A DNA stretch of 34,346 nt from a virus (IMGVR_UViG_3300013132_002749:1-34346), one strand, 5' to 3'. Shown: positions 1-22,353, counted from the stretch's first letter. Translations and numbers: made by a program. Notes: a model not told the origin generated them from the sequence alone.

Positions 1-1396
1 CATCTTTATATACGGCTTGGTCATTTGCGTATTCATTTGGGTCATTGGCCTCTCGATATAAATCTATTAGAGCGTTTAATCTTTTTTTCTTTATTGGATC
101 CAAGCCTTCCGCCACACCTTGCTGATTTATTCTTTTGAACACTTCATTAGCCACACGGTTATAAATTGTTTCTGGAATATTATGCTTGGCAAAATAACGA
201 TCTAACGCACGATATACGGTAGAGTCATAAGCCATACCACGCAATTTTTCTAGATTTTTCCCAGTTGTTAATTTAGTAGCAATATCCATTGCCTGTGCGT
301 CTAAATCAGCGCCTTCCGCCACTGCCTTCTTTTCATCCTTTTTCTTCTCAGGCTTAACAGGTTTAGCCACATCCTTATCACTTACTGGATAGTCTCTTAA
401 ATGACGAGTAGTAGCATTAGGTTTTTTCACAGCCTCTCCTAGCATTTTAATAAGTTCTGGTATTGATTTCCCATCAAAACTAGCAGACGTTAGTTTTGGA
501 TATTTGTCTAACAAACGATTAATAGTCTGTTGTCTCATTTTATTACTAAAGTCTTGATCATTTGGACCGTCTCTATCTATACGATCAGTGCGTGGCATAC
601 GTCCACCTTGACTAAATTGGTCATCTCTATCACGACCAAACCTACCTTCGTCGGCCTTGGCCTTGACCTTTTCTTGTGGTTTCTTATAAATGTTTTTTGC
701 TACCTTTTCAGTATCATCGGCAGCACGAACAAATCCTTTATCACGCATATCCTTGGCCTGTTTCTTAAAAGCATCTATGCGTTCTTGATCTGTTGCTCCT
801 TTATACTCTTTAACTTTCATTGCCTTTTCCTTTTTCACAGGTCGAGCCTGCTGTGTGAGATAGTGTTTTACCACATCAAAAAATGAGTTATCGCCCAATG
901 GTGTATCAGCATCAATACCAGCAGCCTGACTAAATGCTGCTCTGTCGTCTGCGGCCACAGCGTTTCTAAGTTCTGTAGCACTGCTGAGTCTTGGTGTGCC
1001 CACTGGATCAATAGTTTTAAAATTATAAAAACCGTGGGCGCCTTCTTTACCGTTATACTGAATTATAGTTTTAACTACCCATTCTTCATCGGTATAAATT
1101 TTTAGCACAATGTCGCCATATTTTTCATAGATCCTGCTGGCCATCGTGAGCCAACTTTGTTCTGGCATAATATGACCCTCTATCTCAGGGTAGATCATCT
1201 TCATTGCTTCTATTTTGACACCATAAGGTAGTGGATCTTTTGGACCTTGTGTTGATTGGTTAGTGCCCACAAACCAAGCGTCATTTTCACTGGCCATTTC
1301 CCAGGCCCGACGGTGACCTTTATGTGGAGGGTTAAACCTACCAAATATTATTCCTACTGACTGCGCACGGGCTTCAAATAAGTTTCTTAATTTCAC
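1..1396 (-). CDS. Nucleotidyltransferase-domain protein with long charged C-terminal extension (partial, cut by left edge)
   Basis: Reading leftward from a GTG at 1394-1396 the frame stays open to base 1, giving at least 465 residues with no stop. Residues 15-30 contain GRFNPPHKGH, the HxGH nucleotide-binding signature of the cytidylyltransferase/NMN adenylyltransferase superfamily, and residues 138-144 (SSATELR) fit the second signature (S-x-T-x-x-R type). The N-terminal ~150 residues are therefore very likely a nucleotidyl-transferring Rossmann domain; the substrate (NMN, phosphopantetheine, CTP-linked alcohol) cannot be told. Residues ~200-465 are Lys/Asp/Arg-rich and low in hydrophobics, with two VAEG tetrapeptides (359-362 and 428-431). 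The start GTG overlaps the stop of the upstream 117-residue gene (GTGA), suggesting coupling. The C-terminus lies outside the window. Function of the tail is unknown. Confidence 0.8.
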   Translation of the reverse strand, partial: MKLRNLFEARAQSVGIIFGRFNPPHKGHRRAWEMASENDAWFVGTNQSTQGPKDPLPYGVKIEAMKMIYPEIEGHIMPEQSWLTMASRIYEKYGDIVLKIYTDEEWVVKTIIQYNGKEGAHGFYNFKTIDPVGTPRLSSATELRNAVAADDRAAFSQAAGIDADTPLGDNSFFDVVKHYLTQQARPVKKEKAMKVKEYKGATDQERIDAFKKQAKDMRDKGFVRAADDTEKVAKNIYKKPQEKVKAKADEGRFGRDRDDQFSQGGRMPRTDRIDRDGPNDQDFSNKMRQQTINRLLDKYPKLTSASFDGKSIPELIKMLGEAVKKPNATTRHLRDYPVSDKDVAKPVKPEKKKDEKKAVAEGADLDAQAMDIATKLTTGKNLEKLRGMAYDSTVYRALDRYFAKHNIPETIYNRVANEVFKRINQQGVAEGLDPIKKKRLNALIDLYREANDPNEYANDQAVYKD

Positions 1397-1746
1397 TGTT
1401 GTTCTTCCCTGCGCTTTTGTTGATTCTCGTAGTATTCTACTTCTCTGCCGTGTAGTTTTTCACAGATTTCTGTTAGTTCTTCTTCGTCTAATTGTTCTTT
1501 TAGTTGTGGTATAGGAAATTTGTTCTTATAGTTTTCATAGGCCTTGACAATGATCTGCTTAAATGCCAAGGGATCTACATTACGTCCTGCTTCACAGTGT
1601 CCTTGAAAACGATGTTGTATTGGATAGTAGTTGCTGCGATAGAATTCAGGATCAGCGTTCATAAAATAGATTAGATCATCGTGTAGATCATAGTCTAATT
1701 CACTTTTAGGTTCAGGATTAGGATTAAACAGTTCAGTAATCAGCAT
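1393..1746 (-). CDS. Conserved phage hypothetical protein, 117 aa
   Basis: I do not recognise a domain. The protein is acidic in its first third (several Asp/Glu around residues 10-35), then has a Tyr-rich middle, and ends in a charged helical, Glu/Gln/Arg-rich tail predicted to be a helix. One Cys sits near residue 51 and another near 94, with no metal-binding spacing. The ATG at 1744-1746 starts two bases after the stop of the upstream 149-residue gene, and the stop overlaps the GTG of the downstream nucleotidyltransferase gene, so the three are probably cotranscribed. A virion or head-associated role is only a guess from gene order. Confidence 0.75.
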   Translation of the reverse strand: MLITELFNPNPEPKSELDYDLHDDLIYFMNADPEFYRSNYYPIQHRFQGHCEAGRNVDPLAFKQIIVKAYENYKNKFPIPQLKEQLDEEELTEICEKLHGREVEYYENQQKRREEQQ

Positions 1747-1748
1747 AA

Positions 1749-2198
1749 TTATTCCCAGGCTCTACAGGACCAATAACGTGCTTTCCAACGTGGTCCGGGA
1801 TTGGCACAGTTATGTCTTGCTCTAAAACTTTTACGGCGCTTGGGATTAGACTTTTTAATAGTCATTTTCTTATCGCCAAAGTTTACTTTAACAACTTTGC
1901 CATTAGGTTTGCGCACATAGACTTTGGATTTTTTAACATCGCCCGACATAGGCTTGCCCAAGGGCACACTACGTCCTTGATATTCTGCTTCACCTAGGAA
2001 ATTCACTCCGTATTGCTCTAAAAAATCAAGAGCACCAGCATCTGCTTCTACCAACACTGAGTCGTCCCAGGCTTCTATGATATAGGTTTCCAGAGCCACG
2101 TCTTCAGCAAGTTCTATGACAAATTCGTCACCTGCCTCTAGCTTATCGCTGCTCATATTAAATTCAATGTCTTCTATGTATTCTCGTAGCGTAGTCAT
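1749..2198 (-). CDS. Conserved phage protein with basic C-terminal Cys-containing module, 149 aa
   Basis: Acidic N-terminal half (residues 1-70) followed by a strongly basic C-terminal module from about residue 105: an FGD turn, NPKRRKSFRARHNC (118-131) and NPGPRWKARYWSC (133-145). The basic module with two cysteines (C131, C145), one His and conserved-looking Trp/Tyr residues resembles a tail I recall in several environmental T4-like phage proteins, sometimes attached to different N-terminal parts, but I cannot name its function; nucleic-acid or capsid-lumen binding would fit the charge. The ATG at 2198 has a GAGGG Shine-Dalgarno about 7 bases upstream and a GATAAATA late-promoter-like box just beyond. 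Confidence 0.8.
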   Translation of the reverse strand: MTTLREYIEDIEFNMSSDKLEAGDEFVIELAEDVALETYIIEAWDDSVLVEADAGALDFLEQYGVNFLGEAEYQGRSVPLGKPMSGDVKKSKVYVRKPNGKVVKVNFGDKKMTIKKSNPKRRKSFRARHNCANPGPRWKARYWSCRAWE

Positions 2199-2252: not shown

Positions 2253-2855
2253 TTACTTCTTAGTTAGCTCTTCTACCTTGCGTATATTATCGCCTATCAT
2301 TAGTTTTGCCATAGTTAGGCTACGATCGTCCTTGATATAAAAGTAATAACCTCCCCAAGAACCACGTGGATTGCTTAATTCCCACTTGGCTGCTTTGCCT
2401 ATTTTGCCGGTTCTTTCAATATAACTAACAAATTCAGGGTAGGCCTTGGTAGTTCTGCCCATAATCACACGATACTTATAGGTCATATACTTGGCAATGC
2501 TTAGACCCTGATCCAGCAAAGCTTCAGTGCCGGGCTGCGGATACTGAACATACTTTAACAATGGCTCGACTACTGACAAAAATTGTTCGGCATCTGATTC
2601 ACTGTCGGTGTAGAATGCCACATAAGGCGCTTCTACTCTAATGTGATAATTATCAAGTTTTTCCAAACACTCTATAATCTTTGTTAATCGAGGACTGTTA
2701 GGGTCCTTATATAACTCTACTTTCTTTATAAGACTTTTAAGCACTCCGCCTCTGAACCAGCTGGCCTTGCTGTTCACGAAAACTACTTTATACTTGTAGC
2801 GACCCCTAAACTTCTTGGTCGTGAACTTGTATTGTGGTATCTGTTGTAATTTCAC
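2253..2855 (-). CDS. Hypothetical protein in clpA operon, 200 aa
   Basis: Unrecognised protein, basic N-terminus rich in Lys/Tyr/Phe (residues 5-30), mixed alpha/beta composition, no membrane segment and no cysteine pair. Near the C-terminus there is a Gly/Tyr/Trp-rich strand region (about 165-175) followed by a Leu/Lys helix. The GTG start at 2853-2855 lies 50 bases inside the 3' end of the clpA-like gene and has no clear ribosome binding site, which points to translational coupling with ClpA. Position makes a role connected with the unfoldase (for instance an adaptor) worth considering, but nothing in the sequence itself demonstrates this. There are no early alternative Met codons that would remove the overlap. 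Confidence 0.7.
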   Translation of the reverse strand: MKLQQIPQYKFTTKKFRGRYKYKVVFVNSKASWFRGGVLKSLIKKVELYKDPNSPRLTKIIECLEKLDNYHIRVEAPYVAFYTDSESDAEQFLSVVEPLLKYVQYPQPGTEALLDQGLSIAKYMTYKYRVIMGRTTKAYPEFVSYIERTGKIGKAAKWELSNPRGSWGGYYFYIKDDRSLTMAKLMIGDNIRKVEELTKK

Positions 2856-5079
2856 TGGTGTCTACTTTAAGTTTGCTTTTGACATTAAGAGTTAACGCAT
2901 TATCTACTACATTAATATTTAATATTCCTCCCTGCTTTAGGTCTCCAAACAGCATACGCTTGGCCAAAGGACGTTTAATTTCGCGATCAATAACACGATG
3001 TAAAGGACGAGCTCCCATCTTGCTATCAAACCCCTTGTCCACTAACCAATCAATAGCTTCATCTGTGATCTTAATCTTGATCTTCTTGTCCTTGACCTGT
3101 TCACGCACTTCTAGCATAAACTTGCCCACAATCTTGATCATAGTTTCTTTGCTGAGTTTACCAAAGGTAATAACACCATCCAGTCTGTTTCTAAACTCCG
3201 GAGGAAAGAATTTCTTAAGTTCTTTATCTTCATACTCACGTTCTTGACTGCCAAAGCCAATTTGATTCTTTTCAGCATCCTTGGCACCAGCATTGGTAGT
3301 AAGAATTAACACAATATTACGACAGTCTGCTACTTTACCATTACTGCCGGTCACTGTGCCATTATCCATTAATTGTAATAAAATACTGCTAACATCAGGA
3401 TGGCTCTTTTCTATCTCATCTAACAGTAGCACACAGTTTGGCGTTTCCTGTAGTTTAGTGATCAGTAGGCCAGCATTTTCCTCAAAGCCCACATAGCCCG
3501 GAGGACTTCCAATAAGCTTGGCCACACTGTGCTTTTCCTGATATTCACTCATATCAAAGCGAACAAGTTTTACGCCAAGATGTTTGGCCAATGCCTTGGC
3601 TGTTTCAGTTTTACCTGTGCCCGTTGGGCCCATAAACACAAAGCTACCAATTGGTTTATTTTCCTGCTTGAGTCCCGCACGACTTACTAGGATCTTGTCC
3701 ACAATCTCAGTGACTGCGGTATCTTGCCCATATACTTCTTGATTAATATTTGACTCTAGGTTAGCAAGGTTATTACTTTCTTGTTCTGCGATAACTTCTT
3801 CAGGCATTTGAATCATCTTACTTAATTCAAATTCAATGCCCATCTTGGTAACCACACGTTCATCACTGAGTTTAAGATTGAATCTACTACAGGCACAGTC
3901 AATAAGGTCAATGGCCTTGTCTGGTAATTTTTTATCAGTTTGGTATTTTACACTGAGACTTACTGCCGCATCTAATGCTTCCTGTAGAATTCTTACATTA
4001 TGAAACTTTTCGTAATACTTTTTAACACCTTTTAGAATTTCTAAGGTCATTTCCGAAGTAGGTTCGTCTACAGTGATGCGTTGGAAACGACGCATTAAGG
4101 CACGATCTTTTTCAAAGTGCTTGCGATATTCTTCCCAGGTTGTTGAAGCTATTACCTTAATATTGCCTTTGCTCAATGCGGGCTTCATCATATTGGCAAG
4201 GTCATTGCTACTGTTATTGGCAGCACCTGCTCCACTGATCATATGTGCTTCATCGATGAATAGCACAGTTTTGCCACGTTTCTCTAAGGCTCTGAGCACT
4301 AGTTTAAATCGTTCTTCAAAGTCTCCACGATACTTACTACCTGCCAGCATACTACTGATATCTAGGTTATACACGGTATATTCTTTTAGAAATTCTGGCA
4401 CACGACCATTTACAATGTTATAGGCCAGTCCTTCAGCAATAGCAGTCTTACCTACACCTGGATCGCCAACTAGGATTACGTTATTCTTACTACGGCGTCC
4501 TAGTGCTAGAGCAATATTTTCCAGTTCATCGATTCGACCAATAACAGGATCAATCTTTTCTTTCTTTACACCTTCGTTTAGGTTTGTAGTAAACGCTCTC
4601 AATGCTCTGTCCGCCTGCCCGTTGCCACCTTCTTCCTCTTCCTGTTCACTGACTTCATTACTTAGATATTCAGCAAACTTTTCTTTATCGATTTCAGCCT
4701 GCTGAATATAGTAGCTAGCATATGATTTCTTTTCACCCATCATACTTAAAAAGACATCTGTAGGTTCTATTTTTTGACGACCGTTAAATAAAACCTGAGT
4801 AAATGCTCTGTTAAGTACACGTTCTACAGCCTGTGTTTTGCGTGGTTTAACTTCTTCTTCACAAATTATTTCATTTAGTTTAGTTTTAAGATAGTGCTCT
4901 AATGTCTTTTTTAGATAATCTGCATCTGCTCCGTATCCATTCACACATTTGTAAAAGCTTTCTTCACAAAGCATAGCAAAGAGCAAATGCTCTAGGGTTA
5001 AGTATTCGTGTTTGAGCTTTTTAGCTACATCTATAGCTTTTTCAAATACTAGTTGTAACTCGTTGCTGGGCTCTACCAT
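2806..5079 (-). CDS. clpA: ClpA-like AAA+ unfoldase (ATP-dependent Clp protease ATP-binding subunit)
   Basis: At 757 residues this matches the usual ClpA length (E. coli about 758). Order: Clp-N repeat domain (about 1-140), an acidic linker (143-155), first AAA+ module with Walker A GDPGVGKT (205-212) and Walker B LFIDEAH (273-279), and second AAA+ module with Walker A GPTGTGKT (484-491), Walker B LLLDEIE (551-557), sensor-1 TTNAG (594-598), arginine-finger region FRNRLD (629-634) and sensor-2 GARPL (689-693). No ClpB-type coiled-coil middle domain is present. Residues 607-609 are IGF, the tripeptide by which ClpA/ClpX dock on ClpP, so it could feed host ClpP. The ATG has AAAGGA about 7 bases upstream and the gene starts 38 bases inside the deformylase gene. 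No clpP or clpS is seen in the window. Confidence 0.95.
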   Translation of the reverse strand: MVEPSNELQLVFEKAIDVAKKLKHEYLTLEHLLFAMLCEESFYKCVNGYGADADYLKKTLEHYLKTKLNEIICEEEVKPRKTQAVERVLNRAFTQVLFNGRQKIEPTDVFLSMMGEKKSYASYYIQQAEIDKEKFAEYLSNEVSEQEEEEGGNGQADRALRAFTTNLNEGVKKEKIDPVIGRIDELENIALALGRRSKNNVILVGDPGVGKTAIAEGLAYNIVNGRVPEFLKEYTVYNLDISSMLAGSKYRGDFEERFKLVLRALEKRGKTVLFIDEAHMISGAGAANNSSNDLANMMKPALSKGNIKVIASTTWEEYRKHFEKDRALMRRFQRITVDEPTSEMTLEILKGVKKYYEKFHNVRILQEALDAAVSLSVKYQTDKKLPDKAIDLIDCACSRFNLKLSDERVVTKMGIEFELSKMIQMPEEVIAEQESNNLANLESNINQEVYGQDTAVTEIVDKILVSRAGLKQENKPIGSFVFMGPTGTGKTETAKALAKHLGVKLVRFDMSEYQEKHSVAKLIGSPPGYVGFEENAGLLITKLQETPNCVLLLDEIEKSHPDVSSILLQLMDNGTVTGSNGKVADCRNIVLILTTNAGAKDAEKNQIGFGSQEREYEDKELKKFFPPEFRNRLDGVITFGKLSKETMIKIVGKFMLEVREQVKDKKIKIKITDEAIDWLVDKGFDSKMGARPLHRVIDREIKRPLAKRMLFGDLKQGGILNINVVDNALTLNVKSKLKVDTSEITTDTTIQVHDQEV

Positions 5080-5575
5080 TTAGTTTCCTTTGTCGTTTAA
5101 TTGCTAAATCTAATTTAAGTTTACTCATACTATCAGTGAAGCACACACCATTTAAGTGATCAAGCTCGTGTAAAAAACATCTAGCATCAATATCTGTTAG
5201 TTCGATTATATACTCTTTATTATCTCTGTCAAGAAATTGTACAACCACATTTTTAGCTCTTTTAACAGGTAAAAATAAATTAGGGAAACTTAAGCAGCCT
5301 TCATAATCTTGAATAAGTTCTTGATCTGCACCTACTAATATCGGGTTGAATAGTGCAAATGGCGTTGTTACACCTTCTAAATATTCCGTTTTTATAACAA
5401 AAGCTCTTGCATCTATTCCGACCTGGCTGGCTGCTAGACCTCGTCCATTTTCCTCAACCATTAATTGAATCATCTGTTCTTCCAGATCTCTAGGATTTAT
5501 TAGGGGATTATTGAAGTCGAAGTCAGATAACTTTTTCTGTAAAAATGGATTAGGGCTTTTTATTAATTTTAGCAT
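5042..5575 (-). CDS. def: Peptide deformylase
   Basis: Removes the N-formyl group from nascent proteins at the ribosome exit. All three family motifs are present: GRGLAASQ (44-51; motif I GxGxAAxQ), EGCLS (92-96; metal-ligand Cys94) and HELDH (136-140; HExxH metal site, H136/H140 ligands and E137 catalytic). The usual Gln before the HExxH motif is Leu here. The length of 177 residues matches cellular enzymes and is longer than the stripped-down deformylases of some cyanophages, with a polar basic C-terminal tail from about 158. The gene overlaps dnaJ upstream (26 bases) and clpA downstream (38 bases), with no clear Shine-Dalgarno, suggesting coupled translation. Catalytic competence is inferred from intact motifs. 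Confidence 0.95.
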   Translation of the reverse strand: MLKLIKSPNPFLQKKLSDFDFNNPLINPRDLEEQMIQLMVEENGRGLAASQVGIDARAFVIKTEYLEGVTTPFALFNPILVGADQELIQDYEGCLSFPNLFLPVKRAKNVVVQFLDRDNKEYIIELTDIDARCFLHELDHLNGVCFTDSMSKLKLDLAIKRQRKLNGRAQQRVTTSI

Positions 5576-6404
5576 ATATTGTTTCTAACTCTTTAACTAT
5601 TTCGGGATCAGTTACAGCAGGAATATCAATTTTTACTTTTATGTACATATTACCCGGCCGTCCAGTGTTAATGTCTTTAAATCCACGTCCAGAAGCAGCG
5701 AACTCTGTGCCATCGTTTACCCCTGGCCTAATGTTTATGCTAAGTTTAGATCCATCGATATGAGTAACTTCCCTCTGACATCCTATCATTGCTTCTAAAC
5801 TGTTAACTTTTAATGTAGTCCACAAATCATTATTAATGCGTTCGAAAGTTTCATCTGGATCGATCAGTATTTGTACATTAAGGTTTCCTCTAGGCATATT
5901 AGGAAAGCTGTCATCTCCTAACCCTCCAAATCTTATTGTTTGGCCGTGGTTGATTCCAGGAGGAATATCAACTACAGCAGTTTGATTACGACCGTTTGGA
6001 AGATTATATCTAGCTTCTATCTGTGTGCCTAAATAACTTTGCTTTAGAGTAATTCCTATCCTAATAGTTAAATCTTTATTTCGTTTGACCTGTCTAGTAA
6101 ACCCTGATCCAAATTGGGGACCATTAGGTCCAAAATGAAAACTAAACATTTCATGCATTTGGTCAAACGGGTTTGCTTGATGTGAGTGGTTAGATCCAAA
6201 AGGATTAAATCCGTTCTTCTGAGCATCATACTGTGCTTTTTTTTGCGGATCACTAAGCGTATCATAGGCCTGAGATATTTCTTGGAATTTAGTAGTATCT
6301 CCGCCTCTGTCAGGATGATGTTGCATAGCAAGCTTTTTGTATGCTATTTTTATTTCATCCTGACTAGCTGACTCTGTGATTCCTAAAGTTTGATAGTGGT
6401 CCAT
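5550..6404 (-). CDS. dnaJ: DnaJ/CbpA-type co-chaperone (class II J-protein)
   Basis: J-domain at residues 1-62 with the invariant HPD (30-32), which stimulates the ATPase of DnaK. A short Gly/Phe/Asn/His-rich linker (about 65-105) leads to two C-terminal substrate-binding beta domains (about 107-284) with typical DIPPGI and RGNLNV segments. There is no CxxCxGxG zinc-finger domain, so this is a class II (CbpA-like) protein; length 284 is close to CbpA (306). I chose the ATG at 6402-6404 because the protein then starts MDHYQTLG as J-domains do; a TTG at 6420-6422 would add six residues. An AAGGAG lies just upstream of that TTG, so the start is not fully settled. The 3' end overlaps the deformylase gene. 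It must work with host DnaK, since none is encoded here. Confidence 0.93.
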   Translation of the reverse strand: MDHYQTLGITESASQDEIKIAYKKLAMQHHPDRGGDTTKFQEISQAYDTLSDPQKKAQYDAQKNGFNPFGSNHSHQANPFDQMHEMFSFHFGPNGPQFGSGFTRQVKRNKDLTIRIGITLKQSYLGTQIEARYNLPNGRNQTAVVDIPPGINHGQTIRFGGLGDDSFPNMPRGNLNVQILIDPDETFERINNDLWTTLKVNSLEAMIGCQREVTHIDGSKLSINIRPGVNDGTEFAASGRGFKDINTGRPGNMYIKVKIDIPAVTDPEIVKELETIYAKINKKP

Positions 6405-6435
6405 AGTGCTATTATATAGCAAGACTCCTTGCCTG

Positions 6436-7017
6436 TCAATCTAACTCTGGGTGGTCATCTTCCAAAGGCGGTCTACTAGGTTGCGGTGGGGCAAATGCCA
6501 TTGGAGCAGGCTGGGCTGGATCCTGCGCCATTGCCATACCTGCGGCTGCTCCTACTGCTAATCCGCCCATTGCTGCCGCAGGCGCACTAAAATTTGCTGT
6601 TGGCCTTGGAGGTGTGCCGAAGCTGTTCATTGGTTGCTGTGGTGCTCCAAAACTGCTAGGTGCTGCGCCAAAACTGCTAGGTGCCCCAAATCCACCAGGT
6701 TGTGGAGGAGGTTGAATACCACCATTGTTAGCTCCTGCTAGTTTTTCCTGTGTGCGACCAAATGCTGCCAATCCAAGAACCGCACCCATAGCAATATGAT
6801 ATAGGCCAGCACCTTGTAAGGTCAAAGGTTGCCATTGAGTTACCTGTATGCCTTTGACACTTTGTAGCAAACTCCATAGTATAGGAAATATAACAAAATC
6901 AAAGGTGCAGGTTGCCATATAGAGCCATCCCATCATAGGACGCCACTTGGCATTCATCCAATCTTCTTTTTTCTTTTCACTATCGCTCATTTTAGCGTAG
7001 TCTTCTGATGTGGCCAT
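6436..7017 (-). CDS. Holin-like membrane protein with Pro/Gly/Ala-rich tail
   Basis: N-terminal soluble charged segment (1-24), an RP pair (26-27), two clear hydrophobic segments at about 29-52 and 66-86, then a long low-complexity tail with FGAPSSFG-type repeats (about 108-135), a further Ala/Gly/Met-rich hydrophobic stretch (147-164) and an acidic end. The RP followed by two membrane segments resembles the three-TM holin family found in phages and gene transfer agents (GTA_holin_3TM), which makes the hole in the inner membrane at lysis. It lies next to spanin genes. Family assignment is moderate; the proline-rich tail is not typical. Start supported by AGGAGCGAA directly upstream of ATG. 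Confidence 0.6.
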   Translation of the reverse strand: MATSEDYAKMSDSEKKKEDWMNAKWRPMMGWLYMATCTFDFVIFPILWSLLQSVKGIQVTQWQPLTLQGAGLYHIAMGAVLGLAAFGRTQEKLAGANNGGIQPPPQPGGFGAPSSFGAAPSSFGAPQQPMNSFGTPPRPTANFSAPAAAMGGLAVGAAAGMAMAQDPAQPAPMAFAPPQPSRPPLEDDHPELD

Positions 7018-7029
7018 TTTCGCTCCTAA

Positions 7030-7593
7030 TTACCATAACAGTAGTGCGCCCTGCGCACTTAACAATATGCCGGCTCCTGCTACTACAAAACTGCCCCAGA
7101 ATAAAGGCATACTTACAGCTAATATGCTGGCTGATAGTAGCACAATGCTGAGTTGATAAGCAGTAGAAGCATAACCAATCCAAGGGCTGCGCTTTTTAGC
7201 TTCATCACGTTCAGCTTCTAAGGCCTTGGCTTTTTCCATAATCTCTTTTTTGTCATCATTCATACGCTTGGCTTCAGCTTCAAACTTTTCTTTGTTTTCC
7301 GGTAGCCTTGTATCCATAGCCGCAGTTGTATATAGCACCTCACGCATATTTTTAGCCTGATACCAAGCCCACTGATTGTTAGCACTTATAGTATTGTTTA
7401 ACACGGTAGAACTTAGCTTGCCACCATACCAGGCATTTACAGCCAAGCATAGAGCAAACACATTAATCACAAGACCCGCTTTGTCTTTGATCTTGGCTTC
7501 ACGCTCTGAACGTGACCCTACAGGTGGTTTAGGAGCATCGGGATCCTTTGCTTCCTTGGTAAAAAATCTCAATAGTGTATCTACTGCGCTCAT
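7030..7593 (-). CDS. DUF4337-like membrane protein
   Basis: 187 residues with a membrane segment at about 39-56, a conserved-looking NNQWAWYQAKNMRE block (72-85), a charged coiled-coil stretch (about 97-135) and two C-terminal hydrophobic segments (about 145-163 and 168-187). The WAWYQAK block followed by a coiled coil and terminal membrane helices is what I know of the DUF4337 family, which is of unknown function and occurs in bacteria and phages. The ATG has AAGGAGCGAA immediately upstream, the same leader as the neighbouring holin-like gene, so the two are probably expressed together. A lysis or membrane-remodelling role is inferred only from position. Confidence 0.7.
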   Translation of the reverse strand: MSAVDTLLRFFTKEAKDPDAPKPPVGSRSEREAKIKDKAGLVINVFALCLAVNAWYGGKLSSTVLNNTISANNQWAWYQAKNMREVLYTTAAMDTRLPENKEKFEAEAKRMNDDKKEIMEKAKALEAERDEAKKRSPWIGYASTAYQLSIVLLSASILAVSMPLFWGSFVVAGAGILLSAQGALLLW

Positions 7594-7613
7594 TTTCGCT
7601 CCTTAATGTGCTA

Positions 7614-7895
7614 TTATTTAACCTTGTCGTATAGTTCTTTTTGACGCTTATACCATTCATTCCAACCGTCATTTTTAATACTACACTGATAATATAGTGT
7701 GTAATTTTCTACTACTGCTTTAAGTAGTTCAGTGACAGCAATATGATCACCTTCAATCTTTTTAAGATCTGGACAAGGTTCAGTAAGTTCTTTGACTGCT
7801 TCTGGAAATGGAGTTCTTACCTGTACTATCTTTGGCTGTAGTAGGCTACAACTGGCCATAACAATGCTTAGACAAGCTATAAGAATTAATCTCAT
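7614..7895 (-). CDS. Rz1-like o-spanin lipoprotein
   Basis: 93 residues with an N-terminal hydrophobic signal (about 2-15) ending in a lipobox-like VMASC, with Cys16 as the likely lipidated residue. The mature part is short and polar, contains PFPEAV and PCPDL segments and ends in a Trp/Tyr/Lys-rich helix (about 76-93). Outer-membrane spanins join with the inner-membrane spanin to fuse the two membranes at the last step of lysis in Gram-negative hosts. Its ATG overlaps the stop of the i-spanin-like gene (ATGA, 7892-7895), the common separated or overlapping spanin arrangement. A second Cys pair (about 41 and 71) could form disulfides. It implies a Gram-negative host. Confidence 0.7.
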   Translation of the reverse strand: MRLILIACLSIVMASCSLLQPKIVQVRTPFPEAVKELTEPCPDLKKIEGDHIAVTELLKAVVENYTLYYQCSIKNDGWNEWYKRQKELYDKVK

Positions 7896-8422
7896 TTTTT
7901 GTCTCCTTCTGGCTTGCTGGCTGCTTTGTTATGTGCGTCAATTAAGACTTGAGGCAATACACATATTTCATTAAGCTTCTTTAGTTCGTCAATTTTCTTT
8001 TGATACTCTTGACGTTGTTCGTCGGTCATATCTTTAGTGATCTCTTTTATTCGTTCTGGACCAGGAACTTCAATAGTTTTTACAATATCCTTGCCACGCT
8101 TTTCAATTACCTTGGTTTTTTCTACAATCTTTTCCTGTATTTCTACGTTAGTGTTGGCACTTTGGTCTTTGTATTTTTCGATTACAGCATTAAGTCTGTC
8201 TAGTTCTTCCTTATACATTTTTTCATTAAACAGTAGGCCTTCAACAAAAACACCTATGACAAGACAGACTACGCTGACAAAGAGTATAGGGAATCTGTAA
8301 AGGCTTACCATAGGTATGCGTTTTAATACCCAGGCTACAATAATTCCTGTAACGCCTGTTAATAAGATTAGAAACCAAAACCAGTCAGGTAATAGGTTCA
8401 ACATCCAAACAATTTGCCACAT
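7892..8422 (-). CDS. Rz-like i-spanin with coiled coil
   Basis: Two hydrophobic segments near the N-terminus (about 11-34 and 43-65) anchor the protein, followed by a long charged coiled-coil region (about 68-155) rich in Glu/Lys with EKIVEKTKVIEK-type heptads, and a short tail. This matches an inner-membrane spanin, although classical Rz has only one membrane segment. Start ATG at 8422 has GGAG about 9 bases upstream and overlaps the stop of the 246-residue gene (TAATG). The overlap with the lipoprotein gene supports the spanin-pair call. Some phage proteins with this layout are simply annotated as membrane proteins, so the role is inferred from context. Confidence 0.65.
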   Translation of the reverse strand: MWQIVWMLNLLPDWFWFLILLTGVTGIIVAWVLKRIPMVSLYRFPILFVSVVCLVIGVFVEGLLFNEKMYKEELDRLNAVIEKYKDQSANTNVEIQEKIVEKTKVIEKRGKDIVKTIEVPGPERIKEITKDMTDEQRQEYQKKIDELKKLNEICVLPQVLIDAHNKAASKPEGDKK

Positions 8423-9162
8423 TAGATTTTCTCCAAGGCCACAGCATATCCTTGATTTTCAAATATATACTGATTATTAATTTTTGTAATATTGTAGTTG
8501 CCTATATATTTTGTGTAAAACATAATTTCACTAATGTCTTTACCTTCTAACATTATAGGACCTTTGATATTTTCATATACACGATGTTTTGGACCACTAT
8601 CTTTTATCCTCATTTTGATAGGATCTGCCTGATATCTTTGAAATACTAAGTTATCATTATCTGTAGCAATCTTATCAACAAAGCTGTTGGCAAAAAAATT
8701 ACTAAAGTTTTTTAGATGGTTTTCTTGAATGCTAGTTTGATAGGTTGTTTTATTATTCGGAATCATTTCCCTAAGTGAATTAACATTTGCAGGCACACTT
8801 TTAAAATCTTTGTGATATCTAAATTTAAAATCGTCAATTTCAGCTAACTGTTTTATACCGTTTAGAAGTTCATCAATTTGGTCTGCTACTCTGCGATTAC
8901 GTTCAATCTCTACAAAAACTTTGTATTTGCCATTGTCTAGTTCACCTGGGCTATGGTCTGCGTCTAGTACAAAGTCAAATCCTCGTTCACAAAATCTGAC
9001 TAGATCTTCCGCAGGGTCTTTGCTTTCTACAGTAAAACTTAACACTACGATATCTTGATCAGAGCCCATTTTACTAGCATAGCTATCTATTTCAAAAATA
9101 TTGTTTACTAGCCTTTTAAGATCACCGGCTAGTAGTTCTTCATTAAGCTGTTGGTGCGGCAC
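8422..9162 (-). CDS. Conserved phage protein of unknown function, 246 aa
   Basis: I do not recognise a known domain. The protein is soluble, acidic in the first half with VVLSFTVESKDPAEDL (39-54) and an ExxRN-like region near 107, and ends in a beta-rich C-terminus with many Asn/Tyr/Ile residues. The GTG start at 9160-9162 is supported by AGGAG 7 bases upstream. It begins 20 bases inside the end of the 197-residue gene, and its stop overlaps the i-spanin start, so it belongs to the same transcript. A similar-looking gene pair occurs, as far as I recall, in marine T4-like phages without assigned function; a virion role is possible. Confidence 0.7.
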   Translation of the reverse strand: MPHQQLNEELLAGDLKRLVNNIFEIDSYASKMGSDQDIVVLSFTVESKDPAEDLVRFCERGFDFVLDADHSPGELDNGKYKVFVEIERNRRVADQIDELLNGIKQLAEIDDFKFRYHKDFKSVPANVNSLREMIPNNKTTYQTSIQENHLKNFSNFFANSFVDKIATDNDNLVFQRYQADPIKMRIKDSGPKHRVYENIKGPIMLEGKDISEIMFYTKYIGNYNITKINNQYIFENQGYAVALEKI

Positions 9163-9736
9163 TTGGTGCTCCTCCTAATGGTGATGCAGGCGCTGCCCCT
9201 GCTGCTGGTGCTGCGGGCATTCCTCCTGGTGGCGCCATAGCTGCTGCTTGATCAGAAACTGCTGCTGGTGCCGATTGTGCTTTATCACCTTGGTCAATGC
9301 CCATACTTTCTCGCAATCTTGACATATAACCGTTAAAGGTATCTTCGACTAGCTTTCTGGGCATACTTATTTCCACTATCCAGATAGGACGTTGATCTAT
9401 TTTTCCTTTGCGTGTTCCGGGCCTAAAATCATCTGGACTTTTAATTTTTCTTGGTTCTAACAGGTTGCTTTTCTCATATTTTACTTCGCAACCGTATTCT
9501 AATAGACGTTTTGCTGCCATGGGATCAGGCATTTTTTCTTCAGGCCACATAAAGCTGGCACGAACCCAATGACGGTCTATAACCGGTCCAGATGCTAGTT
9601 CTCCGTCAAGCCAGTTTTTATATACGTACATATTCATCTCACTTAAAACTCTTTCAAAGTCTTTCAATGCAGAAAGAGCTGAATTTGAGTTATAAATGGA
9701 TTCAACGTTTTTAATTACTTCAAGTATATCACGCAT
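9143..9736 (-). CDS. Conserved phage protein with Ala/Pro-rich tail, 197 aa
   Basis: Residues 1-150 look globular with a conserved-looking central block (DGELASGPVIDRHWVRASF, 44-62, and LLEYGCEVKYEKSNL, 78-92) and a beta-strand WIVEISMPRKL near 118-128. From about residue 155 the chain becomes almost entirely Ala, Pro, Gly and Ser, a flexible tail. No catalytic motif recognised. The central block reminds me of hypothetical proteins in pelagic T4-like phages but I cannot assign a role. Start ATG at 9734-9736 has a weak GGAAA upstream. It is the first gene of the minus-strand string that runs away from phoH. Confidence 0.7.
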   Translation of the reverse strand: MRDILEVIKNVESIYNSNSALSALKDFERVLSEMNMYVYKNWLDGELASGPVIDRHWVRASFMWPEEKMPDPMAAKRLLEYGCEVKYEKSNLLEPRKIKSPDDFRPGTRKGKIDQRPIWIVEISMPRKLVEDTFNGYMSRLRESMGIDQGDKAQSAPAAVSDQAAAMAPPGGMPAAPAAGAAPASPLGGAPSAAPTA

Positions 9737-9888
9737 TATATTTTCCAGAATAAGCTATTCTTATTTAGCTGGCCTTAATCTATATATAACTGCTTTATTA
9801 ATAAACCAAAATAGTAAATAGTTTTGTAGGACCTCTGTAGAGATTAGGCGGTCACTACAAGTCCTGCTTACCAAAGTGGGAGAACTTA
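9737..9888. promoter_or_regulatory. Divergent intergenic region between the 197-aa gene and phoH
   Basis: This 152-base AT-rich region must carry promoters for both directions. It contains a hairpin-capable repeat at 9745-9772 (CCAG-AATAAG, 5-base loop, CTTATT, TAG bulge, CTGG) near the minus-strand start, an AT-rich stretch TATATATAAC (9781-9790), and a second structured segment at 9826-9867 just ahead of phoH. No exact TATAAATA is present; the closest minus-strand match is GCTAAATA (6/8) at 9762-9769. Promoter positions are inferred, not demonstrated. Confidence 0.45.
9826..9867 (+). other. Possible structured RNA leader upstream of phoH
   Basis: GTAGGAC (9826-9832) and GTCCTGC (9861-9867) can pair over 7 bases with one G-U pair, enclosing 28 bases that include a small CTC-TGTA-GAG hairpin. 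The element lies 22 bases before the phoH ATG and before its GGGAG ribosome binding site, so it could be a 5' leader that regulates phoH. It resembles a tRNA acceptor arm but is far too short to be a tRNA. I do not recognise a riboswitch class. Confidence 0.3.
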
Positions 9889-10605
9889 ATGAGTAAAAGA
9901 GTGAAGAAGCGTTTTAATAGTAATGTAAACGTAATTGATTTTCATACATACCTTCCTGCGAAAAAGCATCGTGTAGATGTCAATCCTCGCAATAAAAACC
10001 AACAACTATATCTACAGCAACTACAAAACGATGACAAAAATATAGTCATAGCAGTAGGACCAGCCGGCACAGGTAAAACTATGCTAGCTGTGCAATACGG
10101 TATACGTATGTTTCAAGAAGGTAAAGTGGACAAAATCGTAATCACTAGACCCGCCGTGAGTGTTGATGAAGACCTAGGATTCTTGCCAGGAACATTACAA
10201 GAAAAAATGGCTCCGTGGACAAGACCAATTTTTGATGTATTAGGAGAATATTATAGTCAAAAAGACATAGAAAATATGCTAGCCGAAGGTGTAGTAGAAA
10301 TCAGTCCATTAGCTTATATGAGAGGGAGAACATTTAAGAGTGCTTATATAATTGCTGATGAAATGCAAAACGCTACTCCTAACCAAATGAAAATGCTGTT
10401 AACAAGGATCGGTGATTTCAGTAAAATGGTAGTCACTGGAGACTTAAATCAAGCAGATAGGTTAAAAGATAATGGTTTAATTAATTTTATTGAATTGTTA
10501 ACAGAATACAAACAGACAGAATATCTTGCTGTTGTTCATTTTGATCATACAGACATCGAACGACATCATGCCGTTAAGGAGATACTAGCAATTTACGGAG
10601 ACTAA
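9889..10605 (+). CDS. phoH: PhoH-like P-loop ATPase
   Basis: 238 residues forming a single PhoH-type helicase-like ATPase domain. Walker A is GPAGTGKT (57-64); the family block TRPAV...DLGFLPG lies at 87-101; the ISPLAYMRGRTF block is at 138-149; Walker B is IIADEMQNA (154-162); and the sensor VTGDLNQAD is at 182-190. PhoH is among the most common auxiliary genes of marine phages; its exact role, suggested to be RNA-related or phosphate-stress-related, is unresolved. It is the sole plus-strand gene in the first 32 kb, with GGGAG about 8 bases before the ATG and a strong hairpin after its stop, so it forms its own transcription unit. An N-terminal basic extension (1-30) precedes the ATPase core. 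Confidence 0.96.
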   Translation: MSKRVKKRFNSNVNVIDFHTYLPAKKHRVDVNPRNKNQQLYLQQLQNDDKNIVIAVGPAGTGKTMLAVQYGIRMFQEGKVDKIVITRPAVSVDEDLGFLPGTLQEKMAPWTRPIFDVLGEYYSQKDIENMLAEGVVEISPLAYMRGRTFKSAYIIADEMQNATPNQMKMLLTRIGDFSKMVVTGDLNQADRLKDNGLINFIELLTEYKQTEYLAVVHFDHTDIERHHAVKEILAIYGD

Positions 10606-10609
10606 ATTA

Positions 10610-10630
10610 GTAGGGCGACTATCGCCCTAC
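10610..10630. terminator. Bidirectional hairpin between phoH and the clamp-loader gene
   Basis: A perfect 9-bp inverted repeat, GTAGGCGA-type stem written in full as GTAGGGCGA (10610-10618), loop CTA, TCGCCCTAC (10622-10630), begins five bases after the phoH stop. It also covers the stop codon of the convergent clamp-loader gene (10627-10629). GC-rich stem plus convergent gene ends indicate a terminator serving both strands; the T-tracts after it are weak. Confidence 0.7.
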
Positions 10631-11544
10631 ACATGACTTAATCTAATCATAGTAGCTGCAAGGTTAATTTCAGGGTCGTTTACTAATGTGTGATCAACTA
10701 GGCCCTGTTTTATAATCAAGATAGCCTTTTCTTGTTTAGCGTCATCACCAAACAGCTCAATATTATCATAAAGCCAACGATAGATATCTTCCATTTCTTC
10801 TGGTCTTGCTTGGCTACAAACTAATTTACGTGCCTCGCTGATTTTGCCTTTTTTAAACAAATCTACCATTTCAACATGATAGTCAGCGGTTTTATCGGCG
10901 GAATCTGCACCGTGTAATCTTCCGTCAATGCTATTCATCTGAACACTGTTAATACACTTTCTAAGATCTGGATACGCAGCCCTTACATAGGTATCTAGGG
11001 TATCTAGGTCAAAGTCTACATTTTCTTCTACAAGAATTGTGGCCACTCTGGCACAAAATTCATTTGCATCTGTTTTTTCAATATGAATTTTTTGGCATCG
11101 GCTATGTAAAGGAGGAATAATGCGATTAGGATAATTACAGGTTAAAATAAATCTTACAGTTTGACTATACTGCTCCATAAGGTTTCGCATAGCTGGTTGC
11201 ACACTTTGTGGATTCAAATAGTCTGCTTCATCGATAACAACAACTTTAAATTCGCCAAACGGGATAGTTTGGCAAAATCCTTCCAGTTTATCTCTAAGCC
11301 AGTCTATTTTACGGCCGTCTTTGCTACCATTTACAAACATAACATCCGTATCTTGTACGTTTAGCTGGTTAATTAGTATTTTAGCTAATGTAGTTTTTCC
11401 AACTCCTGCACTGCCGCTAAACATAAGTTGTGGTATACTTCCTTCTTCAATCCATTTTTCAATTTGGGCACGTTGAGTTTCATCTCGGAATACATATCCA
11501 TCCAAGGTGGCAGGCCTGTACTTTTCTGTCCAGAGTTCTTTCAT
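10627..11544 (-). CDS. 44: Sliding-clamp loader large subunit (T4 gp44-like)
   Basis: AAA+ ATPase that with the small subunit gp62 opens the sliding clamp and loads it at primer-template junctions during phage replication. 305 residues, close to T4 gp44 (319). The N-terminus carries the clamp-loader WTEKYRP signature (5-11), Walker A GSAGVGKT (44-51), Walker B VVVIDEAD (101-108), and the SRC motif (148-150) that supplies the arginine finger to the neighbouring subunit. The remaining C-terminal part is helical, as in the collar domain. AGAGG lies about 7 bases before the ATG and within the end of the small cysteine-rich gene upstream, so expression is coupled. Genes for gp62, gp45 or gp43 are not in the window. 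Confidence 0.95.
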   Translation of the reverse strand: MKELWTEKYRPATLDGYVFRDETQRAQIEKWIEEGSIPQLMFSGSAGVGKTTLAKILINQLNVQDTDVMFVNGSKDGRKIDWLRDKLEGFCQTIPFGEFKVVVIDEADYLNPQSVQPAMRNLMEQYSQTVRFILTCNYPNRIIPPLHSRCQKIHIEKTDANEFCARVATILVEENVDFDLDTLDTYVRAAYPDLRKCINSVQMNSIDGRLHGADSADKTADYHVEMVDLFKKGKISEARKLVCSQARPEEMEDIYRWLYDNIELFGDDAKQEKAILIIKQGLVDHTLVNDPEINLAATMIRLSHV

Positions 11545-11546
11545 AA

Positions 11547-11693
11547 TTACCTCTTTAGTAGTTTTTTAATTGCTTGAATAAGATTATAAAATCTTAAGTA
11601 GTGAATGTCAATACTAGGTGGATGATGTGGACATCTGCCTTGTCTGAAATCACAGTTTATTGTGTATTCTTTACGGCAGATATCGCATTTCAT
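11547..11693 (-). CDS. Small Cys/His-rich protein, 48 aa
   Basis: A short frame that encodes 48 residues beginning MKCDICRKEY. Cys3, Cys6, Cys14 and Cys21 plus His23-His24 form a plausible zinc-binding set, followed by a basic amphipathic helix (about 32-48) ending in KKLLKR. Its ATG overlaps the stop of the MazG-like gene by four bases (ATGA, 11690-11693) and its TAA ends two bases before the clamp-loader ATG, filling the gap exactly as a coupled operon gene should. The downstream gene's ribosome binding site lies in its last codons. I do not recognise the family; a nucleic-acid-binding or protein-binding mini zinc finger is likely from the residues alone. Confidence 0.7.
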   Translation of the reverse strand: MKCDICRKEYTINCDFRQGRCPHHPPSIDIHYLRFYNLIQAIKKLLKR

Positions 11694-12046
11694 TGTAAAA
11701 AAGGTTTAAGATCGGGGGGTTGCCAACCGTCTGGTTTGAGTACCTTGCCGTCCTCTCGTTTACGAACTTTGCCAGTAAGTTCGTCGATTTTAGAAAAATT
11801 AGTTCGCATAACCTCGTTCCAAGCGCCTTCGCCGTCGGCTCCCATACTATGGATAGCTCCTATAGTAACAACTAGTATGTCTGTAAGAGCATCAAGTTGT
11901 TCTTCTTGACAGGTTGCGTCGTCGAGCTCTTTTACTTCTTCTTTTATTAAATTTTTATATAAAATAAATTGTCTTGAATTTATTTCGTTAACAGTTTGAT
12001 CACAGGCTGTCATGAACTTAGCCTGATCCTTGAATGGGTTTGTCAT
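11690..12046 (-). CDS. mazG: MazG-like nucleotide pyrophosphohydrolase
   Basis: Short all-helical protein of the MazG/PRA-PH superfamily, which hydrolyses (d)NTPs or alarmone-like nucleotides to monophosphates. The first metal-binding motif EExxE is present as E36-E37-V-K-E40, and the second as DALTDILV with D52 and D56. The C-terminal half, with VMRTNFSKI and KVRKREDGKVLKPDGW (about 92-109), is typical of single-domain phage MazG-like proteins. It overlaps the GroES-like gene upstream by four bases and the small Cys-rich gene downstream by four. Phage MazG has been proposed to adjust nucleotide or ppGpp pools; substrate here is unknown. Confidence 0.85.
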   Translation of the reverse strand: MTNPFKDQAKFMTACDQTVNEINSRQFILYKNLIKEEVKELDDATCQEEQLDALTDILVVTIGAIHSMGADGEGAWNEVMRTNFSKIDELTGKVRKREDGKVLKPDGWQPPDLKPFLQ

Positions 12047-12384
12047 TGTACTAAAATATCCTCTGGGCGGTCATCTGCTGATAGTAATATATCATCTGGG
12101 TCGATGCGTCTCACTGTAAAAACTTCTTCACCGTCTTCAAGTTGAACACCTCTAGTCCATCTTCCGTGCATTACATAAACCCATTCACCTTCTTTAACAC
12201 TGTGTTGATCTGGCCCAATAGCATAAACTTTGGCCCATCTAGGTTTAATCCCACTGCTTTTTCCATCTTGGCTAGGTATATAAAGGCCGGAGGTCAATCG
12301 TATACCTTCAGAATCTAAGTCTCTTACAAGAATGGCATCTCGTAAGGGACGTAATTTTACCTTTTTAAGAGTATCAAAACCCAT
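12043..12384 (-). CDS. GroES-like co-chaperonin (T4 gp31 functional type)
   Basis: 113 residues, near GroES (97) and gp31 (111). The start of the beta-barrel KLRPLRDAILVR (10-21) is followed by a mobile-loop region about 24-46 containing EGIRLTSGLYIP, in which the hydrophobic I-R-L resembles the I-V-L that contacts GroEL, and then RWAKVYAIGPD, KEGEWVYV and PDDILL barrel strands as in GroES. It would cap host GroEL, probably to fold large phage proteins such as the major capsid protein. Start ATG at 12384 directly follows the stop of the 71-residue gene with AAGGAT upstream. The C-terminal end after DILL is a little longer than in GroES. A roof hairpin is not obvious. Confidence 0.9.
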   Translation of the reverse strand: MGFDTLKKVKLRPLRDAILVRDLDSEGIRLTSGLYIPSQDGKSSGIKPRWAKVYAIGPDQHSVKEGEWVYVMHGRWTRGVQLEDGEEVFTVRRIDPDDILLSADDRPEDILVQ

Positions 12385-20196: not shown

Positions 20197-22353
20197 TTAG
20201 AATCCTGTTAGTTGTCCAAGCACGGTATAACCGCTGCCAGTTAAAAATACACTGAATGTTACTACATCTACTCTATTAGTACTAGGAGTAGGTGTTGCGT
20301 TGCCCTGCCAATTAATAGTTTGAGCAGTACCGCCAATCTGTAGAGCATTAGGATAGTAGCCTGTTCCGCCCTGAGATATGATTATAGTTACGGTTGTAGC
20401 ATAGTTAGTTAAAAGGCTAAAGTTAGTTAGATTCACAGTCCAGTTAGCATCTGACGAAGTGTGATAGAATATGTGCCCGTTAGCACAGTCGTGTGTGACT
20501 ACGCCTGTTGCGTCTTGTAGGCTGCTAAATTTTTCCTGTATTGCCTTCCTGAAAACGACATCACCGTTAAAGAATCCACTGCCATTGAATGTGGTATTAC
20601 CGTTAGTGTCAGTTGCTCCTATAGTTATACTATTGTCTAATCCCGCGGTGTTAAAAATCTGTGCCCCATTGGACAACTGTATCGCACCGGGGACAGTTAA
20701 GACACCGTTGGCACTAAATGTCCATTCTTTCCAAGTGCCCGGTATGGCAGCAGGCACTCTGATTTGTGTATTATTATTACCGTCATCTCCTATGATGGTA
20801 CCATTAGGCAATATAGTATCACCACTACTACCATCAAAGGTCCAGGTGCGATCGTTATCACCATAGTCTGTTACAATGTATGCACTGTAATTTGCACCTA
20901 TGGTCACACCTTGCGGACCTGTTCCAAGAATGACTCCGGGTATAGTTAAATTACCGTTGGCAGCAAACGACCATTCGTTATTTTCTTGATTAGTTTTAAT
21001 AGAAACTGCACCAGTTCCGTCTGTGCCTGCTGATAATATAATATGATTAGGAGCGGCGGTCAATAAACTTCCATTGTCTTCTTCGATACCAATGTTGCCC
21101 GGTAAGTAGATAGATCCCGGTATAGTTAGGTTTCCGGTATTGCCAAAAGTCCAGGTATTTGCTCCGCTGTTGGATTTGATGTTAACAACACCGTTGAATC
21201 CAAGACCTGTTGCTGTCAATGTAACATTTCTACCTTTTGCTAATAGACCACTGTTTTCTTCTAAAGTAGCCGCTTCTGCTGAACTTGGTAATGTTAATAT
21301 CCCATCCTCACTAAATGTCCATCTACGCAGGGTAGAATCTGTAAGATTGATGTCTATGTTGATAGCACCTTCGCTGCGGATATCACCTGGGATAGTTAAA
21401 CTAGCACCACTGTCATCGAAGGTCCAGATATGCCCACCGGTTCCAATGATAATAGGACCTTCTTTGGCAAGTTTTAGATATTTGCCATCGTCACCAAAGT
21501 ATTGATCATAGGCTATATTGTCGCCTGTGTCAAGATGTAGGTGTGTAGGATTATCACCGCCGCGTATTCTAAAATATTGACCAGTTTCCACCATACTTGG
21601 ATCGGGGCTTAATTGTATGCCACCACCACCGTAAACATCGCCAACACCCTGTATGGTTATTCCATCAAAAGTTATGTCACCGGTGTCCTGAGCAGCATTT
21701 ACCCAAGAACCACCGTTCCACGTCAGCACATCACCCACTGAAGGTGAATTAGCACTAACATCTGTGAGATTGTCTAATACTAGATATTCACCGTTCTCTT
21801 GAACGATGCGATTGTTGTTCAGTGTGAGATCACCGTTGCTGTCTATCTTTAGAGCATTACCACCAATGTAGATAGTATTGTTGCTAACATATAAACTACC
21901 CCAAGGATGTGTAGGTGATCCTAAATTGTGTTCGTTGGCAACATTTGGGACAATGTCGCCTTGCATTGTAAGTTCGCTTCTAATGACTAGATTTTGATCT
22001 ATAATAATGTTACTACTATCTGTGGTAGTCATTACATTATTTGTAAATTCAAAAGATCCTAGGTTAAAACTGGATCCATTTACTTTTAGTATCCCACCTT
22101 CTACAGTCAAAGGTATATTGTCTAAGTAGATAGTATTACCACCTACATATAGGCTACGCCATTTTTTAGTCGGCGAGCCTAGGTCATAGGTATCATCCTC
22201 ACTGGGAATAATATGTGTTTCTAAATTTTCAAAGTCTGCTCCTAATGCTGCATATAATTCATTAAAGTTTGCATTGACCTTAATAAACGCTGTGCGCAAT
22301 GGATCCCCATTACCTTTGTCCGCCGTTCCTACATTAATTGTCTGTTGTGTCAT
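20197..22353 (-). CDS. Tail-fibre protein with repeated W(T/S)F beta units, 718 aa
   Basis: N-terminus (INVGTADKGNGDPLRTAF, KVNANFNELYAAL) is the shared fibre module. Two DLGSPT-like segments (about 56 and 146; DLGSPTKKW, NLGSPTHPW) with SLYVGGNTIY strands follow. From about 330 to 620 a beta unit W(T/S)FxxxGxLT(I/V)PGxI recurs about six times (W near 334, 358, 404, 449, 500, 545), probably a triple-stranded beta-helix or prism shaft. A THLHLD with one HxH lies near 268. The C-terminal ~110 residues are a distinct beta domain. The start ATG overlaps the stop of the giant fibre gene by one base (TAATG). Confidence 0.85.
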   Translation of the reverse strand: MTQQTINVGTADKGNGDPLRTAFIKVNANFNELYAALGADFENLETHIIPSEDDTYDLGSPTKKWRSLYVGGNTIYLDNIPLTVEGGILKVNGSSFNLGSFEFTNNVMTTTDSSNIIIDQNLVIRSELTMQGDIVPNVANEHNLGSPTHPWGSLYVSNNTIYIGGNALKIDSNGDLTLNNNRIVQENGEYLVLDNLTDVSANSPSVGDVLTWNGGSWVNAAQDTGDITFDGITIQGVGDVYGGGGIQLSPDPSMVETGQYFRIRGGDNPTHLHLDTGDNIAYDQYFGDDGKYLKLAKEGPIIIGTGGHIWTFDDSGASLTIPGDIRSEGAINIDINLTDSTLRRWTFSEDGILTLPSSAEAATLEENSGLLAKGRNVTLTATGLGFNGVVNIKSNSGANTWTFGNTGNLTIPGSIYLPGNIGIEEDNGSLLTAAPNHIILSAGTDGTGAVSIKTNQENNEWSFAANGNLTIPGVILGTGPQGVTIGANYSAYIVTDYGDNDRTWTFDGSSGDTILPNGTIIGDDGNNNTQIRVPAAIPGTWKEWTFSANGVLTVPGAIQLSNGAQIFNTAGLDNSITIGATDTNGNTTFNGSGFFNGDVVFRKAIQEKFSSLQDATGVVTHDCANGHIFYHTSSDANWTVNLTNFSLLTNYATTVTIIISQGGTGYYPNALQIGGTAQTINWQGNATPTPSTNRVDVVTFSVFLTGSGYTVLGQLTGF
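20690..21450. repeat. Six dispersed W(T/S)F-GxLTIPG coding repeats
   Basis: Within the 718-residue gene, segments encoding a W(T/S)F...G.LT(I/V)PG.I pattern recur about every 40-55 codons: examples near 20720, 20845, 20960, 21145, 21310 and 21415. The DNA of the units has diverged, so this is an old protein repeat rather than a recent amplification. Confidence 0.65.

Follow-up and report, generated by a model that had tools for sequence, protein, structure and literature searches.

The DNA analysed here is a fragment of 34,346 bases from IMG/VR (the window), which carries on its minus strand a block of four genes, dnaJ, pdf, clpA and u200 (Table 1). A sequence-only reading of the window had described four genes in one direction, overlapping by 26, 38 and 50 bases, and this was confirmed exactly; the identities it had assigned (a class II J-protein, an intact peptide deformylase, a full-length ClpA and a 200-residue protein of no recognised family) likewise held in Pfam and PHROG searches and in alignment with E. 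coli ClpA. The four genes are, however, not a separate operon, since they sit within a longer minus-strand run, extending from o197 (9736) down to a cytidyltransferase-like gene (position 2), together with virion, spanin and holin genes; o246 and o197 belong to virion structural families. An in-frame TTG upstream of dnaJ, at 6422, is a possible alternative start. As the block is placed in a virion-and-lysis gene run, it is probably expressed late. The T4-type late promoter sequence TATAAATA is rarer than chance, with a single copy in the window and none near the block, so it is the gene context that points to late expression. The biggest gene of the fragment (22353-32234, minus strand) encodes a tail-fibre-like protein of 3,293 aa.

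Table 1. Coordinates of the four-gene block and of neighbouring features in the window.
Feature	Position	Strand	Remarks
Same-strand run upstream of dnaJ: holin-like, DUF4337, spanin, o176, o246, o197	6436-9736	-	
dnaJ, class II (B) J-domain protein, 284 aa	5550-6404	-	ATG start
dnaJ/pdf overlap, 26 nt	5550-5575	-	
pdf, peptide deformylase, 177 aa	5042-5575	-	PF01327, E 7e-39
pdf/clpA overlap, 38 nt	5042-5079	-	
clpA, two-ring AAA+ unfoldase, full-length, 757 aa	2806-5079	-	phrog_4871, E 5e-250
IGF tripeptide of the ClpP-docking loop of ClpA, residues 607-609	3253-3261	-	
clpA/u200 overlap, 50 nt, contains the u200 GTG start	2806-2855	-	weak ribosome-binding site
u200, lineage-specific family, 200 aa, GTG start	2253-2855	-	tandem ferredoxin-like predicted fold
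o117, protein without PHROG or Pfam match, downstream of u200 without overlap	1393-1746	-	

The known members of the block retain the motifs of their families. First, the dnaJ product has a J domain with the HPD motif (PF00226, E 1e-22) and C-terminal substrate domains (PF01556, DnaJ_C, E 2e-30), and lacks the zinc finger, which makes it a class II (B) J-protein; among its relatives HPD is present in 117 of 118 and the zinc motif in none of the 118. No DnaK was found in the 16 records searched, so the phage J-protein should use the DnaK of the host, as had been expected from the window itself. The J-protein of phage RB43, likewise phage-encoded, was shown to work with host DnaK (PMC3486835); the effect of the RB43 protein, stabilisation of sigma32, cannot be assumed here. 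Second, the deformylase contains all three motifs, GLAA, EGCLS and HELDH, aligned to solved deformylases, with EGCLS found in 81/81 and HExDH in 79/81 of its relatives. Finally, residues 6-732 of ClpA align end to end with residues 4-745 of E. coli ClpA (E 7e-201), and the protein scores higher against ClpA than against ClpB or ClpC, having an N-domain and two AAA+ rings with Walker A and B motifs in each, and no ClpB middle domain. The Walker motifs and pore loops are retained in 81 aligned sequences, and IGF, which aligns with IGL of E. coli ClpA, is found (as IGFG) in all 144 lineage sequences; the earlier observation of a preserved docking loop is thus borne out, and ClpA appears competent for ClpP docking. 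Matches to 'Acinetobacter phage MD-2021a' were set aside, the records being judged probable bacterial contigs because they also carry clpB, cbpA and dnaJ. The huge-phage loci LR7565xx/LR745206 contain dnaJ with no clpA nearby.

Linkage of the genes was followed in relatives from IMG/VR, where the ClpA search gave at least 579 relatives and an alignment-based scan with u200 gave 421 (a single-sequence scan gave none); the best 80 of each were kept for neighbourhood counts, and, as the two sets have some contigs in common, they are not fully independent. Wherever ClpA-based loci had room (best 80 of at least 579), dnaJ was upstream in 62/62 and pdf in 38/62, with u200 and o117 downstream in 76/76 each. 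For the u200-based loci (best 80 of 421) the counts were 75/75 for clpA directly upstream, 47/47 for dnaJ, 30/47 for pdf and 74/74 for o117. Hence dnaJ, clpA and u200, never missing where there is room, are the fixed parts of the block, and the deformylase is optional. Free shuffling of the neighbours, which had been named as grounds for giving up the proteostasis module, is seen for pdf and not for dnaJ, clpA and u200; a fixed set of four genes, at any rate, does not exist.

The overlaps are not due to chance, since they are found again in relatives: dnaJ/pdf in 58/58, pdf/clpA in 57/59 and clpA/u200 in 113 of 114 non-redundant loci. In the remaining locus (L114:3-2003) the clpA ORF is split in two frames, by a frameshift or an assembly error, and its second piece overlaps u200. 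The holin/dnaJ and u200/o117 junctions had no overlaps and frequent insertions, and these two, as well as dnaJ/clpA, were opened in some loci, whereas the clpA/u200 junction was never opened in the 114. A further gene, o149 (phrog_7595, C-terminal RHNC..PGPRWKARYWSCRAW; window 1749-2198, minus strand), separates u200 from o117 in only a handful of loci (6 in the non-redundant set), in some of which it belongs to a 559-aa ORF (L028:10910-12586). In L165 (G004:78731-79348) the u200 match crosses one TAG codon.

Where present, pdf always occupies one slot, between dnaJ and clpA. Its presence changes 15 times on the ClpA tree (101 rows), at least 8 of the changes being forced by well-supported branches, and its distances agree with those of ClpA less (rho 0.50) than do those of dnaJ (0.78) and u200 (0.87). 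The deformylase is best regarded as an accessory gene; the simplest reading of the tree, which cannot separate gain from loss, is that it was repeatedly lost and replaced at its single slot.

The u200 gene starts with GTG or ATG at the same position in close relatives, and its constant overlap with clpA, together with the weak ribosome-binding site before the GTG, suggests translational coupling to clpA. The window protein has no Pfam or PHROG match, and the 55 members of the family compared with PHROGs gave only scattered matches with E above 0.001. Head or tail PHROG matches were absent, which places u200 outside the known virion families. Profile and fold comparisons with the PDB yielded nothing at E < 0.001; RRM/ferredoxin-like matches were weak (TM about 0.2-0.3) and were not taken as homology. 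No match was found in the phage collection by tblastn with two queries, and no relative in GTDB bacterial and archaeal genomes by a non-exhaustive pattern scan with a narrower alignment. The AlphaFold2 model (alignment of 55 members, mean pLDDT 92.7) is confident, and we read its secondary structure as two successive beta-alpha-beta-beta-alpha-beta units, i.e., a tandem ferredoxin-like fold, matched by uncharacterised phage proteins (best A0A6J5L0Q2, TM 0.87). The fold also weakly matches a protein of Agrobacterium phage Atu_ph07, probably AUZ94826 (208 aa, not near clpA), and a distant relation between the two predicted folds is possible. The distance between the AUZ94826 gene and a ClpX-like gene is about 7 kb (L185:807-2066 and 9284-9910). 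The u200 protein evolves fast (mean distance 0.51 vs 0.21 for ClpA), and in the loci sampled its gene is located only directly behind clpA.

Parts of the block have counterparts in known giant phages. Genes 193-195 of Sinorhizobium phage Phosso encode a dnaJ-like protein, a peptide deformylase and a Clp ATPase in the order and direction seen in the window, and Phosso ClpA is 45% identical to that of the window; this phage also encodes ClpP and ClpS, but its genes are non-overlapping as annotated and have thymidylate synthase and dihydrofolate reductase downstream of them, and u200 is found nowhere in its genome. In Atu_ph07, which also encodes ClpP, ClpS, ClpX and ClpB, DnaJ (gp293) directly precedes ClpA (gp292) as in the window, but the two are not separated by a deformylase gene, and clpA is not followed by u200; the roles proposed for its Clp and DnaJ proteins are virion assembly, replication and aggregate clearance (PMC6102473). 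Pseudomonas phage PA5oct (EST35_0297-0298) has the order o197-o246-dnaJ-clpA in common with the window, with the clamp loader and inverted phoH upstream in both, but its block is without lysis genes, pdf and u200, and a virion protein follows clpA. Mass spectrometry underlies the annotation of its o197 homologue as a virion protein. The order groES-like gene, clamp loader, inverted phoH, o197, o246 (window 9143-12384; L005:1382-5886) is common to PA5oct, and the shared order ties the window to that jumbo-phage group. Surveys of ClpA, ClpP, ClpS and DnaJ in jumbo phages have been published (PMC7824862), ClpA is a core gene of moraphages (PMC12619734), freshwater bS21 phages carry chaperones with Clp protease (PMC9723584), and deformylase has been reported in huge phages (PMC7162821). 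The literature covered, which holds few subscription journals, yielded no description of the four-gene block or of u200. The sequence-only reading knew of no such set in a phage; given dnaJ-pdf-clpA in Phosso, dnaJ-clpA in Atu_ph07 and PA5oct, and a published proteostasis role, this is too strong for the known parts, which are ordinary for giant phages, and holds, within that literature, for u200 and for the block of all four genes.

We interpret the locus as a late protein-quality block of a jumbo-type phage, of freshwater type and related to Atu_ph07, PA5oct and Phosso, an explanation that as a whole we consider evenly poised between right and wrong, its DnaJ/ClpAP part being the rather more probable portion. 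The phage J-protein would lend host DnaK to the folding of phage proteins, and ClpA with phage ClpP, possibly also with host ClpP, would form a ClpAP of phage origin, which would unfold and break down selected host proteins or misfolded proteins of the phage. The deformylase, as an optional add-on, may sustain N-terminal processing during heavy late synthesis. Lastly, u200, translated together with ClpA, would stand in for ClpS by acting on ClpA as adaptor or regulator.

This last step is the most tentative. ClpS is a small adaptor acting on the N-domain of ClpA. All five reference phages with ClpA carry it and lack u200, and it was found in none of 47 u200-lineage contigs, all partial genomes; from this distribution u200 could have taken over from ClpS as an adaptor of ClpA, a suggestion we make while thinking it unlikely, the absence of ClpS being weak evidence because the lineage genomes are all fragments. 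The u200 protein is not itself a ClpS: it shows neither a PF02617 domain nor a sequence match to ClpS, has about double the length, and differs in its two-domain ferredoxin-like predicted fold. Its distances correlate with those of the ClpA N-domain after removal of D1/D2 (partial rho 0.45, vs 0.26 for dnaJ and 0.32 for o117), a correlation that is confounded by shared descent and is not a test of binding. The linkage of u200 to clpA may reflect lineage synteny, since o117 is linked about as strictly, and the position of AUZ94826, whose fold may be related, away from clpA in Atu_ph07 also counts against an adaptor. An adaptor or regulator of ClpA in the broader sense is a slightly better prospect, if still a rather unlikely one.

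The main alternative, quite possible though we would sooner doubt than accept it, is a role for u200 in the virion or in its assembly; u200 would then simply adjoin clpA within a structural gene run and make no contact with ClpA, and ClpA and DnaJ would be assembly chaperones. The run holds the two virion structural families as well as the lysis genes, in PA5oct the position behind clpA is taken by a gene annotated, from mass spectrometry, as encoding a virion protein, and both the fast evolution of u200 and the equally strict linkage of o117 agree with such a role. On the other hand, the clpA/u200 overlap stays closed in every locus while most neighbouring junctions vary, and the lack of a PHROG match sets u200 apart from the virion families known so far.

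The protease partner was sought in the same genomes. A gene for ClpP (PF00574) is present in each of the five reference phages having this ClpA, whose genomes are complete or nearly so, and in the lineage in four partial contigs (G003, G005, G007 and G009) and a fifth, G042, where it lies on the strand of clpA, 43-57 kb upstream. By their coordinates, all four contigs that extend 57 kb or more upstream (G003, G005, G007 and G042) have clpP; in G009 it is about 46 kb from clpA, and G008 reaches 52 kb without it. None was found in 30 mid-size contigs, none of which reaches 57 kb upstream by the coordinates checked, and none was seen in the window, which reaches only 29 kb upstream of clpA. The ClpP sequences read retain their catalytic motifs (GQACSMGS, MIH and the D region at the C-terminus). 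Given these phage clpP genes, the partner of ClpA is probably not just host ClpP. The sequence-only reading had the phage ClpA reprogramme host ClpP, and ClpA acting as a lone unfoldase that turns the protease of the host from its own purposes to those of the phage now looks improbable: the invariant IGF loop would suit it, and no phage ClpP is seen in the window or in most other contigs, but these are mostly too short upstream, and ClpP is present in every reference genome and in every lineage contig that is long enough.

That u200 is instead an inhibitor or counter-defence protein (e.g., against host ClpAP or a chaperone-dependent defence), co-translated for dosage only, is very unlikely, for all its fast, lineage-restricted evolution and lack of an enzyme fold match, as it is unrelated in sequence or fold to known inhibitors and universal in the sampled lineage, whereas typical counter-defence genes come and go. 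Returning to the protein-quality block, in its most specific form our proposal is that u200 founds a new, tandem ferredoxin-like family of ClpA adaptors, which replaced ClpS in a large aquatic jumbo-type lineage and steers a complete protease, the phage-encoded ClpAP; in this form it is somewhat more doubtful than the plain replacement of ClpS.

Were u200 to prove an adaptor of ClpA, jumbo phages would own a self-contained degradation system comprising an unfoldase, a protease and a targeting factor; such a system could eliminate particular proteins of the host, and with u200 ClpAP would be programmed in a new way. Regardless of the role of u200, the fixed parts of the block (dnaJ, clpA and u200) are now distinguished from the optional deformylase, and phage ClpP, not host ClpP alone, is a probable partner for the phage ClpA.
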